A DNA stretch of 64,000 nt from Treponema sp. GTDB taxonomy: Bacteria > Spirochaetota > Spirochaetia > Treponematales > Treponemataceae. The position numbers and the translations under genes were made by a program. Under the pieces are notes generated by a model, which saw only the letters and a list, made by a program, of their open reading frames with translations, was not told the origin of the DNA and did not search any database. Every line of letters starts with the position of its first letter. Position 1 is the stretch's first letter. Below, piece by piece: positions 1 to 59,836 of the stretch. The stretch spans positions 1 to 64,000 of the forward strand of contig JAFSRD010000039.1 of NCBI GenBank assembly GCA_017446265.1, read 5' to 3'.

Positions 1-33
1 CTCGTTTTCAACGATTTTTTAGAAGTTTACCGA

Positions 34-66
34 GTTTTAAGTCGTTAAAATATCACGACTTAAAAC
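34..66. repeat. 12-bp inverted repeat (hairpin A of composite repeat copy A)
   Basis: GTTTTAAGTCGT (34-45) and ACGACTTAAAAC (55-66) form a perfect 12-bp stem with a 9-nt A/T loop. The same kind of stem, with different but still paired bases, occurs on the other strand at 15989-16021. It may act as a terminator for a gene left of the window or be part of a mobile intergenic repeat. Confidence 0.7.
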
Positions 67-84
67 ATCGCATTTTCAAGGTTG

Positions 85-134
85 CTTCTAAAAACTGTGA
101 CAGGGCAGCGAAGCATCTAGCCAGTTTTTAGAAG
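85..134. repeat. 13-bp stem-loop (hairpin B of composite repeat copy A)
   Basis: CTTCTAAAAACTG (85-97) pairs perfectly with CAGTTTTTAGAAG (122-134) around a 24-nt loop. The loop core (TGACAGGGCAGCGAAGCATC) recurs almost unchanged at 21725-21744 after tex. It lies just upstream of the BCCT gene. Confidence 0.7.
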
Positions 135-14648: not shown

Positions 14649-15909
<1,261 letters not shown>

Positions 15910-15940
15910 TCTTCAGGAGGTATACGCGTATATTTATTAC

Positions 15941-15983
15941 ACCTGTTCGAAAACCTCAGTTTCAGAACAGGTTGCTTTGAAAT
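15941..15983 (+). repeat. 43-nt stem-loop repeat, copy B
   Basis: ACCTGTTC (15941-15948) pairs with GAACAGGT (15965-15972), with AAAC/GTTT pairing inside. The 43-nt unit matches the reverse complement of 40651-40693 at 40 of 43 positions; the tail GGTTGCTTTGAAAT is shared. Confidence 0.8.
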
Positions 15984-15988
15984 GCGAT

Positions 15989-16021
15989 GTTTTAATTCGT
16001 ACTATTTTAGCAAATTAAAAC
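15989..16021. repeat. 9-bp inverted repeat (hairpin A type, copy B)
   Basis: GTTTTAATT (15989-15997) and AATTAAAAC (16013-16021) enclose a 15-nt loop. On the minus strand this stem and its flank TTAAAACATCGCATTT align with copy A at 34-74. Confidence 0.65.
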
Positions 16022-16097
16022 GCGCAAAGGTCTATTACGTGTCATGGCCATGTTCCTTTACGGGAATATGGCCTTTTTAAAAGCGAAGGAATTAGTA

Positions 16098-17594
16098 ATG
16101 GCTGATGACATGGTCCTGCAGATAAAAAATCTGTCAAAATCATTTGCAAAAAATAAAGTGCTTGATGGCATTACGCTGTCTGTAAAAAAAGGCTCCGTGC
16201 TTGGCCTTATGGGAGAAAACGGCGCAGGAAAATCTACCATGATGAAATGTCTCTTTGGCATCTATACAAAAGATGAAGGGCAGCTCATACTCGACGGAAA
16301 ACCGATTGATTTTAAAAATCCCAAAGAAGCGCTGGAAAATGGTGTTGCAATGGTGCATCAGGAATTGAACCAATGCCTTGACCGCTCCGTCATGGACAAC
16401 TTGTATCTCGGCCGCTACCCAAAACAATTTGGAGTCGTAGATGAAGCTAAAATGCTCAAGGACAGTACAGCGCTCTTTGAGTCCCTTCATATGAATGTAG
16501 ACCCGCATACGATAATGCGCACCATGTCTGTTTCGCAGCGGCAAATGGTAGAAATTGCAAAAGCTGTTTCATACAACGCAAAAATCATTGTACTTGATGA
16601 ACCGTCTTCCTCACTCACAGAAAATGAGGTGGAGAAGCTATTCTTAATCATCAAAAATCTAAAGGCACAGGGAATTTCTTTCATATTTATTTCACATAGA
16701 ATGGACGAAATCTTTTTAATCTGTGATGAGGTTGCTGTCCTACGCGATGGCAAAATGATTCTTGCAAAAGAAATAAAAAAAACTGATATGAACGAACTTA
16801 TCGCTGCTATGGTGGGACGGTCGCTCGAAAAACGCTATCCTGATATAGATAATGTTCCGGGAGAATATATCCTTGAAGTGAAAGACCTAACGACAAAATA
16901 TGAACCTGCGCTTAAAAGCATTTCTTTTAAAGTCCGACGAGGTGAAATTTTCGGCTTATATGGTTTGGTAGGTGCAGGCAGAAGCGAACTGCTTGAAGCG
17001 CTGTTCGGCGTACGCACTATTGCGTCAGGAGCTGTCATTTACAACGGCAGACGGCTTCGCTTTAAAGACAGCCGCGATGCCATGGACCACAATTTTGCGC
17101 TCGTCACGGAAGAACGAAAACTTAATGGCATGTTCGGCAAAGCTTCGATTATGTTCAATACGACAATAACAAATCTGGAAAGTTATAAAACAAATGGCAT
17201 TCTATCAAATCGAAAAATGTATGAGGCGGCAAACCGTGAAATTGCGCGGATGAAAACAAAATGTGTCTCTGCAGATGAAATCATAACGGCGCTTTCGGGA
17301 GGCAATCAGCAAAAAGTTATCATCGGAAAATGGATTGAGCGTACGCCGGAAATTTTCCTCATGGATGAACCGACGCGGGGCATTGATGTAGGTGCAAAAT
17401 ATGAAATATATCAACTCATCATCAATATGGCAAAAGAAGGCAAAACAATTATACTTGTATCAAGCGAAATGCCGGAAATACTCGGCATTACAAATCGCGT
17501 GGCGGTCATGTCAAATCACCGCCTTGCAGGAATTGTAGACACAAGCACGACAGATCAGGAAACGCTCATGCGCCTTTCTGCTCAATATGTCTAA
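16098..17594 (+). CDS. mglA: sugar ABC transporter ATP-binding protein MglA
   Basis: 498 residues with two fused ABC domains, the normal architecture for ribose/galactose (CUT2) importers. Domain 1 has Walker A GENGAGKST at 39-47 and Walker B IIVLDEP. Its signature is weak (MSVSQRQMVEIAKA instead of LSGGQ), as usual for the family. Domain 2 has a degenerate Walker A (GLVGAGRSE) and a good LSGGNQQK plus FLMDEPTRGID. It powers sugar entry through MglC. ATG at 16098 follows AAGGA; an upstream in-frame ATG at 16044 would add 18 residues and falls right after the repeat region. Confidence 0.93.
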   Translation: MADDMVLQIKNLSKSFAKNKVLDGITLSVKKGSVLGLMGENGAGKSTMMKCLFGIYTKDEGQLILDGKPIDFKNPKEALENGVAMVHQELNQCLDRSVMDNLYLGRYPKQFGVVDEAKMLKDSTALFESLHMNVDPHTIMRTMSVSQRQMVEIAKAVSYNAKIIVLDEPSSSLTENEVEKLFLIIKNLKAQGISFIFISHRMDEIFLICDEVAVLRDGKMILAKEIKKTDMNELIAAMVGRSLEKRYPDIDNVPGEYILEVKDLTTKYEPALKSISFKVRRGEIFGLYGLVGAGRSELLEALFGVRTIASGAVIYNGRRLRFKDSRDAMDHNFALVTEERKLNGMFGKASIMFNTTITNLESYKTNGILSNRKMYEAANREIARMKTKCVSADEIITALSGGNQQKVIIGKWIERTPEIFLMDEPTRGIDVGAKYEIYQLIINMAKEGKTIILVSSEMPEILGITNRVAVMSNHRLAGIVDTSTTDQETLMRLSAQYV

Positions 17595-19305: not shown

Positions 19306-21717
19306 ATGGAATTTACACAAGAACAAATCGATTCTCTTTCGATTGATGAATCAAAAATTATTGAAAAAATTGCAGGTGAATTACAGATACGAGGAACACA
19401 AGCTTCGGCTGTAATCAATTTAATTGGCGAAGGCTGCACAGTGCCTTTTATTGCACGATACAGAAAAGAAGCACACGGCTCTCTTGACGAAGTGCAAGTT
19501 CGTGACTGTGCACATAAATTTTCATCATATAAAAATCTTGAGGAGCGAAGGCTCGAAATTGTTAAGGGAATTTTTTCGCAAGGAAAATTAACAGAAACTT
19601 TATACAAGTCGGTTCAAGATGCGACAACGCTTTCCGCTCTCGAAGATTTGTGGACTCCGTTTAAGAAAAAGAAAAAGACGCGTGGAATGCTTGCAATCGA
19701 AAGGGGGCTTGAGCCATTGGCAGATGCAATGCTTTCTCTTGACGATGCAGAAATCGAAAAAAGAGCAAAAGAATTTATAAATGATAACAGCGAGAATCCT
19801 GAACTTTCTGTTGCAACGGCAGAGGATGCACTTTCTGGTGCGAAAGATATTCTTGCAGAGAGACTCTCTCAAGATAGCGAGTGCAGAAAATTAGTAATGG
19901 ATTTGTATCGTTCGACTGGCAGCATCGTAACGAAGGGAATTGGGAGCGAGGAAGATGCAAAGACTTCGGTGTATCAGATGTATTGGGATTATAGCGAGGC
20001 ACTTTCCGAGATTAAGGCTCATCGTGTGCTTGCAATAAATCGTGGGGAGCGAGAGGGCGTGCTTGATGTAACAATCGATGTTGATGTAGACGGTGCAATC
20101 ACGCTTTTAAAAAAGCATGCAAAAACAAACAATCGCTATCATGCAGAGGCGGTTGAAGACGGCATTGTTCGCTTGCTCTCTCCATCTGTTGTTCGAGAAA
20201 TCCGAAGTGACGAAAGTGATAAAGCAGATGAGCACGGCATTGGAATTTTTAGCGAGAACCTTCGTAATCTTTTAATGACGCAGCCAATCAAAGGAAGCCG
20301 CGTACTTGGCGTAGACCCTGGCATTAGAACAGGAACAAAGTGTGCTGTTCTTGACGAAACTGGAAAATACATTGCAAGTTTTTTGATAAAACAAGTTTCA
20401 GACGAAACAGGTTCATACAATGCACTAAAAGATGCAATCAAAAAATATAACATACAAATTGTTGCTGTCGGAAATGGAACAGGCAGTCAAGAAGTTCAAA
20501 AAATTGTGAGCAAGGTTATAAGCGAAAACTATCCTGATGTTCATTATACTGTCGTGGACGAAAGCGGTGCATCTGTTTATTCTGCAAGTGACATTGCAAG
20601 AGAAGAATTTCCCGACTTGGATTTAACAATACGAGGTGCAATCAGTATGGGTAGAAGATTACAGGATCCGCTTGCAGAACTTGTTAAAATCGATCCGAAA
20701 GCGATTGGTGTGGGGCTTTATCAACATGATGTAAATCAAAAAAAACTTTCCGAAACTCTTGATGAAGTCGTAAGTTCTGTAGTGAACAATGTGGGCGTAA
20801 ATTTAAACACGGCGAGTGCATCTTTGTTAAAATATGTTTCAGGAATAACTTCTAGCACTGCAAAAAAAATTGTAGCCTATCGAGATGCAAACGGAAAAAT
20901 TACCAGTCGGGAAGATTTAAAAAAGGTGAGTGGGCTAGGACCGAAAGCGTTCGAGCAATGTGCAGGATTTTTAAAAATTCCTGAAAGCAGCGACGAACTC
21001 GATAATACATGGGTTCATCCGGAAAATTACGAAGTCGCTAGAGAGCTTCTTCAGGTGATAAAATCTGGAAAAGATGTTTCGCCTGCGTTAAAAGAAAATC
21101 TTAAAAAAACATACAATCTGGGTGATACAACTCTTTCAGATATTATTGATGAGTTACGAAAGCCAAATCGTGACCCACGCGAAAGTTATCCTGCTCCAAT
21201 TATGCAGCAAGGTGTGCTTTCATTTGAAGATTTAAAACCTGGCATGAAAGTAAACGGTAAGATTCGAAATGTTGTAGATTTTGGCGCCTTTGTTGATATA
21301 GGCTTGCACGAAACGGGACTTATTCACATAAGCGAACTTTCTGACAGTTTTGTAAGCGCTCCAATGGATTTCGTTAAGGTTGGCGATGTAAAAGAGTTTA
21401 CGGTTTTGTCGCTTGACACAGACAGAAAGCGCATAAGTTTATCGCTCAAAAGTGATGCAGCTCTTCGTGCAAGCACAGATGCGACGAAAGTAAACGCTGC
21501 AGGTCCGTCTTCGGGAAAGAAACGCATTGTCGTAAAAAAAGCTAATGCTGATGTTTTGAAAAACGCCGCTGCACGTGCAAATCCTAGACAGGGCGGACGC
21601 GATGAAAATGCAAGGCGAGGCGAACAAAGGCAAAACGCTATGCGAGGAAGTCGCACAAACAAAGACAACAGCGGCATGACATACAACCCATTTGCAGATT
21701 TGTTAAAGGGAACCTAG
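19306..21717 (+). CDS. tex: RNA-binding transcriptional accessory protein Tex
   Basis: 803 residues. Tex-family order is clear: N-terminal helical region, YqgF/RNase-H-like core (VLGVDPGIRTGTK near residue 333), helix-hairpin-helix repeats (NLNTASASLLKYVSGI and VSGLGPKAFEQCAGF, ~500-560) and an S1 RNA-binding domain at ~645-715 (GKIRNVVDFGAFVDIGLHE). A basic, Arg/Gly/Asn-rich tail of ~80 residues follows. Tex binds nucleic acid and affects transcription elongation and RNA turnover. It starts 3 nt after mglC, so it can be cotranscribed. Codon use is more A+T-rich than in mgl, hinting at a separate origin. No obvious Shine-Dalgarno site. Confidence 0.93.
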   Translation: MEFTQEQIDSLSIDESKIIEKIAGELQIRGTQASAVINLIGEGCTVPFIARYRKEAHGSLDEVQVRDCAHKFSSYKNLEERRLEIVKGIFSQGKLTETLYKSVQDATTLSALEDLWTPFKKKKKTRGMLAIERGLEPLADAMLSLDDAEIEKRAKEFINDNSENPELSVATAEDALSGAKDILAERLSQDSECRKLVMDLYRSTGSIVTKGIGSEEDAKTSVYQMYWDYSEALSEIKAHRVLAINRGEREGVLDVTIDVDVDGAITLLKKHAKTNNRYHAEAVEDGIVRLLSPSVVREIRSDESDKADEHGIGIFSENLRNLLMTQPIKGSRVLGVDPGIRTGTKCAVLDETGKYIASFLIKQVSDETGSYNALKDAIKKYNIQIVAVGNGTGSQEVQKIVSKVISENYPDVHYTVVDESGASVYSASDIAREEFPDLDLTIRGAISMGRRLQDPLAELVKIDPKAIGVGLYQHDVNQKKLSETLDEVVSSVVNNVGVNLNTASASLLKYVSGITSSTAKKIVAYRDANGKITSREDLKKVSGLGPKAFEQCAGFLKIPESSDELDNTWVHPENYEVARELLQVIKSGKDVSPALKENLKKTYNLGDTTLSDIIDELRKPNRDPRESYPAPIMQQGVLSFEDLKPGMKVNGKIRNVVDFGAFVDIGLHETGLIHISELSDSFVSAPMDFVKVGDVKEFTVLSLDTDRKRISLSLKSDAALRASTDATKVNAAGPSSGKKRIVVKKANADVLKNAAARANPRQGGRDENARRGEQRQNAMRGSRTNKDNSGMTYNPFADLLKGT

Positions 21718-21754
21718 AAAAACTGTGACAGGCAGCGAAGCATCCAGAGTTTTT
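21718..21754. repeat. stem-loop repeat, copy C, directly after tex
   Basis: AAAAACT (21718-21724) pairs with AGTTTTT (21748-21754). The loop GTGACAGGCAGCGAAGCATC matches that of copy A (98-117 region) with one base missing. It could terminate tex; the right flank GGCAACTTTGAAAAC resembles the tail of copies B and D. Confidence 0.6.
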
Positions 21755-21798
21755 CGAGGCAACTTTGAAAACGATAAATGCTAATAGTGGAAGCGACC

Positions 21799-40217: not shown

Positions 40218-40625
40218 TTACCGTGAGAATTTTACGTACGACATATATTGCGCACAACTGTAGCCGCGTTCATTTTTGAAATATTTTTCGCGGTCGCGCG
40301 CAAGGTATGTGTAGTGGTAATATTGGTTGTCTTTCATAAAATCAACGAGACATTCCATCACCGTATTCATGGCTTCAGCTTTGTCGTAGGTGACATACAT
40401 GCACGTATAGTAAATGCGCACCTCGTCGTACATGGGCGTATACTCAATGCGCACTGTTGCCGTCTGGTCACGAAGATGCTGGTTTTCCGGCACAATGATG
40501 AGCGTTGTCTTTTCATCATAACCTTTGTTGTTTATTGATGTCTCTGGCGTAAACGACTGAGTGTTCTGCGCAAGCAACATGCTTGATACAAAAACCACAC
40601 TTGCTAAAACAAATATTTTTTTCAT
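40218..40625 (-). CDS. small secreted hypothetical protein
   Basis: 135 residues with a signal peptide (MKKIFVLASVVFVSSMLLAQ). The mature part is ~115 residues, rich in Tyr, with no motif I recognise. Three ATGs follow GGAGG in tandem; the third (40625) has the best spacing. Its leader contains the 43-nt stem-loop repeat copy D. It precedes pheS on the same strand, but a functional link is not apparent. Confidence 0.75.
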   Translation of the reverse strand: MKKIFVLASVVFVSSMLLAQNTQSFTPETSINNKGYDEKTTLIIVPENQHLRDQTATVRIEYTPMYDEVRIYYTCMYVTYDKAEAMNTVMECLVDFMKDNQYYHYTYLARDREKYFKNERGYSCAQYMSYVKFSR

Positions 40626-40650
40626 CATCATGCCTCCAACAAAATGACAG

Positions 40651-40693
40651 ATTTCAAAGCAACCTGTTCTAAAACTGATGTTTCCGAACAGGT
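40651..40693 (-). repeat. 43-nt stem-loop repeat, copy D
   Basis: On the minus strand this reads ACCTGTTC ... GAACAGGTTGCTTTGAAAT and matches 15941-15983 at 40 of 43 bases. A minus-strand TACAAT at 40702-40697 puts it within the leader of the small secreted-protein gene. Confidence 0.8.
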
Positions 40694-59792: not shown

Positions 59793-59836
59793 GGGACTGT
59801 CCGAGAAGTTTTCAAAACTTCATCAAAGACAGCCCC
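59793..59836. terminator. nested hairpin after murJ
   Basis: GGGACTGTC (59793-59801) pairs with GACAGCCCC (59828-59836), one mismatch, around an inner 17-nt palindrome GAAGTTTTCAAAACTTC (59805-59821). Confidence 0.6.

Follow-up and report, generated by a model that had tools for sequence, protein, structure and literature searches.

Several small bacterial repeats, namely RUP, Correia/NEMIS, ERIC/RU-1 and MITEAba12, have been described as miniature mobile elements (MITEs) that are non-coding, possess inverted ends, create a target duplication, occur as dispersed intergenic copies and are presumed to be mobilised in trans (PMC6382973, PMC2229807). The repeats analysed here have the same properties and are very probably copies and fragments of such an element, a MITE (non-autonomous DNA transposon) that occurs in Treponema and related bacteria. 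They differ from the named MITEs in their three separate stem-loops, which come in a constant order and of which the outer two each hold the end motif twice, in a target duplication of 4 bp, and in a core hairpin that is conserved across genera and end types. REP/BIME repeats are likewise mosaics of palindromes found between genes, but the Treponema element shows a target duplication and its genome has no Y1 transposase. Pneumococcal BOX elements are modular, structured and dispersed, like the Treponema element. The latter has inverted ends and target duplications, and it is by these features that we set it apart from BOX (BOX and RUP are both covered in PMC3049150). A literature search, with subscription papers outside its coverage, yielded no description of a MITE of Treponema. 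Its recognition adds to the Treponema order a mobile element that is small and widespread, and accounts for the repeated hairpins beside many genes.

Architecture of the element and its remains in the window

The comparison of copies from the genome of origin and from related genomes gave a full element of ~131 bp (usually 129-131, range 128-160), in which hairpin H1, the core hairpin H2, a linker and hairpin H3 follow each other in this order. Full copies are bounded by the inverted ends GGGNANCTCTAAAAACT ... AGTTTTTAGAGRTTCCC (class I), which are contained in the outermost stem-loops H1 and H3. The end motif occurs four times per element, once in each arm of H1 and once in each arm of H3. 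The core hairpin has the layout GACGAGTT-stem-loop-AACATCGC with a bulged A and is followed by the linker, with the family consensus CATTTTCARAGTTACC; extra small palindromes are present in H2 or the linker of some lineages. The element is non-coding, given that 128-160 bp is below ordinary gene size and that indels occur between copies. It shows four features by which MITEs are recognised: a non-coding length within 50-600 bp, terminal inverted repeats, target duplications and empty sites, and dispersed copies. Two other kinds of hairpin were considered and rejected. An intrinsic terminator was ruled out, as H3 is followed by RTTCCC and not by a T run, and an integron attC site was dropped on the basis of the GTT...AAC order of the element, which is the reverse of that in attC.

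The window, that is the whole stretch of 64,000 nucleotides that was analysed (positions 1 to 64,000 of contig JAFSRD010000039.1), contains four places, copies A to D. A preliminary description had presented these as members of a dispersed family with conserved structure, and that reading is correct: the four places are real and mutually related, as seen from genome BLAST, from direct comparison of the copies and from a covariance model built from full-length copies, to which the E values given for the four copies belong. The family had been described as a two-hairpin repeat, but the unit is a transposable element of three hairpins that has inverted ends and makes 4-bp target duplications, and each of the four copies in the window is either a truncated copy or a fragment of this unit. 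Copy A (1-139, + strand; E 2.8e-18) comprises the rest of H1 (1-30), H2 (31-70; CGAGTTTTAAGTCG...CGACTTAAAAC(A)TCG), the linker (71-84; CATTTTCAAGGTTG) and H3 (85-134; arms CTTCTAAAAACTG at 85-97 and CAGTTTTTAGAAG at 122-134), and has TTAT as its right flank (140-143). The bulged A ahead of TCG in its H2 is conserved in the family, and its H3 loop carries a 28-nt insertion that recurs elsewhere in the same genome. Copy A falls short of a full element: it is cut at the 5' side within H1 because the contig (G000:C24) starts there, base 1 of the contig being base 1 of the window. Element copies are probably behind several contig breaks.

Copy B (15937-16036, - strand; E 1.6e-8) consists of a remnant of H1, which is not intact, together with H2 and H3, and has the CCTGTTC end type. 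Folding into both hairpins, as proposed, was found for copy A (z -6.6 relative to shuffled sequence) and likewise for copy B (z -3.4). Copy C (21708-21774, - strand; E 0.0045) retains H3 and remains of the linker; the loop it was said to share with copy A is indeed a common H3 loop, but its orientation relative to the linker is opposite. Copy D (40646-40693, + strand) is a bare H3 preceded by the end of the linker (E 0.39), has the CCTGTTC end type, and is identical to copy B at exactly 40 of 43 bases. A BLAST search of the genome with positions 1-400 of the window gave 21 matches, the best of which elsewhere had an E value of 3e-31; copies B and C were recovered with 4e-7 and 8e-7, respectively.

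The existence of solo hairpins like copies C and D can be explained by internal deletion, judging from orthologous loci: one locus (L300) retains H1 alone where its orthologue (L237) is complete, and another (L304) has lost the greater part of H1 and H2 in comparison with its orthologue (L239). Considering the fact that some solo hairpins have matching 4-bp flanks of their own (TCAA at L003, ATAA at L168 and ATTA at L181), deletion after insertion and movement of the solo hairpin itself are both possible. In genome G001, another abundant repeat with the ends GGGGCTGTCCAATAAGTATGAGTCATTGCC was observed (L047, L048, L049, L050, L194, L205), which in places abuts truncated copies of the element.

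On the basis of simple ORF calling, copies are intergenic and lie within tandem, divergent and convergent gene pairs, often a few bases from a stop codon. All four copies in the window were said to be intergenic and they are found between genes, except that the ORF upstream of copy C (19306-21717), a large one with S1/ComEA-type domains, ends within this copy: its final codons and its stop codon (TAG, 21715-21717) come from the left end of C (GGGAACCTAG, 21708-21717). As copy C supplies the stop, its insertion or decay altered the C-terminus of the protein. ORF 40218-40631 (- strand) starts ~12 nt away from copy D. Copy B is located between an mglB-like gene for a binding protein (14659-15909) and an mglA-like gene for an ATPase (16044-17594), and the MglA-like protein has 85% identity to that of Treponema socranskii, the nearest named relative. 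In other bacteria, hairpins in a gap like the one that holds copy B (15910-16043) tune the mRNA levels of the binding protein.

Target duplications, empty sites and distribution

Exact 4-bp direct repeats were found to flank 26 of the 37 full copies, with boundaries that were assigned mechanically, versus a mean of 2.7 and a maximum of 10 in 2000 shuffled pairings. Repeat lengths other than 4 bp showed no comparable enrichment among these 37 copies. Furthermore, exact empty sites that correspond to four copies of genome G141 are present in its sister genomes, at most three per copy (L251 versus L279 and L280; L253 versus L283 and L284; L254 versus L271, L275 and L273; L257 versus L276). The duplications are TGAA, TATA and ATAC, with GATC/GATA (one mismatch) at L257. 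These four pairs of sites are insertions, since the filled site in each case equals the empty site plus the 140-143-bp element and one additional copy of the 4-bp target. Comparable attempts in G131 and G071 led to sites that were rearranged or replaced. Near-identical copies at separate loci point, by their sequence, to recent spread: the 130-bp copies at L009 and L019 of the genome of origin are identical, and G001 contains eight near-identical copies at different loci. Element copies can serve as markers of recent insertion.

In the proposed mechanism, a DDE-type transposase acting in trans would recognise the fourfold end motif, excise or copy the element and insert it at AT-rich positions by joins staggered by 4 bp. 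Once the element is in place, parts of it could be lost through recombination or slippage between its repeated arms, which would leave solo hairpins such as copies C and D. As to a transposase partner of class I, the genome of origin contained no match to Y1_Tnp, DDE_Tnp_1, DDE_Tnp_1_6 or DUF4096 (PF13751, PF13340), and a search of 118 congeners by the class I end motif revealed, in those loci that were inspected, MITEs and solo hairpins only, with no autonomous element of the same ends and duplication length. A search of phages and plasmids gave no match to the element. The mosaic of palindromic modules, solo hairpins included, would also suit a REP/BIME-like repeat, the hairpins of which are moved as single strands by a Y1 (HUH/RAYT) transposase. 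To our knowledge, HUH transposition yields no 4-bp target duplication, such as is present here, and the missing Y1_Tnp stands beside a positive control search, so that we regard this origin as extremely improbable.

The preliminary description had suggested a genome-wide search with a covariance model, and this recovered many further copies: 22 distinct places with E<=0.01 for model R1 in the genome of origin (2.21 Mb, 44 contigs). Matches with E<=1e-7 were obtained in 26 of the 99 genomes of the order, representing 11 of 48 genera and including T. socranskii. The class I end motif alone was detected in 45 of 118 congeners, and a backward control pattern seldom matched. Among 80 named Treponema loci (0.57 Mb) there were weak matches only.

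Covariation of the stems and its origin

Within the 37 distinct sequences of H2, 90.1% of the cells pair and 12 of the 16 pairs show double-sided changes. The covariation score was 0.312 versus 0.098 after shuffling, and 59 double-sided changes were counted versus a shuffled mean of 12.3, a number that none of 500 shuffles reached. The signal was lost when the partners were slid by 1-3 columns. H3 covaries too. The covariation that the preliminary description had expected upon alignment of more copies is therefore present. To see what happens to copies that stay in place, six orthologous pairs of resident copies from two sister genomes were compared: 248 pairs were unchanged, 15 had one-sided changes that left the pairing intact, 11 were broken and 1 showed a double-sided change. 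The sample is small, and its pairs derive from folds predicted for single sequences. Compensatory changes seem to accumulate along lines of descent of moving copies and not where copies stay fixed. Given that resident copies change mostly without compensation, host-level selection at individual sites fails as an explanation of the covariation. The earlier proposal of selection on structure may be valid between lineages of the mobile copies; in the form of host selection on each resident copy, it is unsupported. In two of the six pairs (L196/L200 and L207/L192), many differences were observed in H1 and H2 and none in H3, for which recombination with other copies or a constraint on H3 is possible.

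Strong stem covariation, a conserved bulged A and loop, and a position between operon genes, like that of copy B, are also what one would look for in a structured regulatory RNA, or a processing or stability hairpin, that is selected for host function at each locus. The resident orthologues, however, break pairs without compensation, the copies in the window each have different neighbour genes, a search of the window at Rfam gathering thresholds gave no RNA family match, and insertion is evident from the empty sites and the 4-bp duplications. We therefore consider such a role very unlikely as the explanation of the repeats, while secondary effects of the hairpins on neighbouring genes, e.g. 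mglB/mglA, are plausible.

A different matter is whether the paired changes reflect structural selection at all, or template-switch (quasipalindrome) correction, in which case the repeats would still be a MITE. Such correction is known to act on long near-perfect palindromes, and double-sided changes are frequent between copies. The predominance of one-sided and pair-breaking changes in the orthologous resident copies argues against efficient correction in place, although correction could still act during transposition; we see this as a possible source of the paired changes, if a somewhat doubtful one. Under the MITE reading itself, H2 would be retained in movable copies by virtue of a fold or sequence that aids mobility or expression, with decay of the resident copies. 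In several of the G141 copies (L251-L257), the H2 loop carries TATCAATGACTTA, a match to the IHF consensus WATCARNNNNTTR that is not conserved in the other genera.

End types and a possible connection to IS1182

A similar core was found under three kinds of ends: class I (GGGNANCTCTAAAAACT), class II (GGGGCTGTCCAAAAACT) and the CCTGTTC type of copies B and D. The second end type, GGGGCTGTCC (class II), carries the same core as class I and occurs in the copies L234, L235, L237, L239, L261 and L265. Reading by eye, a 4-bp repeat was absent from 7 of 7 class II copies. The class II ends match those of IS1182-like insertion sequences over most of the end motif. Such sequences, with terminal stem-loops, are present in three congeners (L060, L061, L186), and the L060 transposase scored 280 bits against the NCBIfam IS1182 model (cut-off 270). 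Ends of the IS1182 type were recognised in the class II copies L234, L237, L261 and L265 and not in class I or in the CCTGTTC copies of the window. The likeness to the IS1182 family (IS1272) concerns the ends GGGGCTGTCCAAAAAG with their terminal stem-loop, which are nearly identical to the class II ends, whereas the class I ends differ and yield a 4-bp duplication. No duplication was visible at L060 and L061, and the insertion sequences at L060, L061 and L186 showed no core H2 at their ends.

IS1272, which is placed in the IS1182 family, replaces stem-loops without duplication (PMC5678879), unlike the class I ends with their 4-bp duplication. One class II copy (L227:8037-8176) occupies the position of a stem-loop in a sister genome (CCGCCCG-TTTGA-CGGACGG; L228 near 16424-16466). 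By analogy, this position fits an IS1272-like insertion, and as a single locus it is a lead and no proof. H2 might be a module of at least two transposition systems, the one with class I ends and a 4-bp duplication, the other IS1182-like with class II ends, stem-loop-replacing and without duplication, and might be conserved by covariation in many genera of the Treponema order because it aids mobility. We put this forward as a speculation that is rather unlikely to hold. If true, a role of H2 as a structural cofactor, as DNA or RNA, would make such MITEs more than empty transposon ends. The conserved, structured core raises the question of why a MITE that is devoid of genes should retain a covarying hairpin in different genera and with different end types.

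Two further observations concern the ends. In the copy at L146:531-670 and its orthologue at L157, H3 is a hybrid, with a class II end in the left arm (GGAAACTGTCC) and a class I end in the right arm, the sequence of which suggests exchange between end types. Finally, the window contains a palindrome of the GGGACTGTCC...GGACAGCCCC kind at 59793-59836, which resembles an end hairpin of the class II/IS1182 type.
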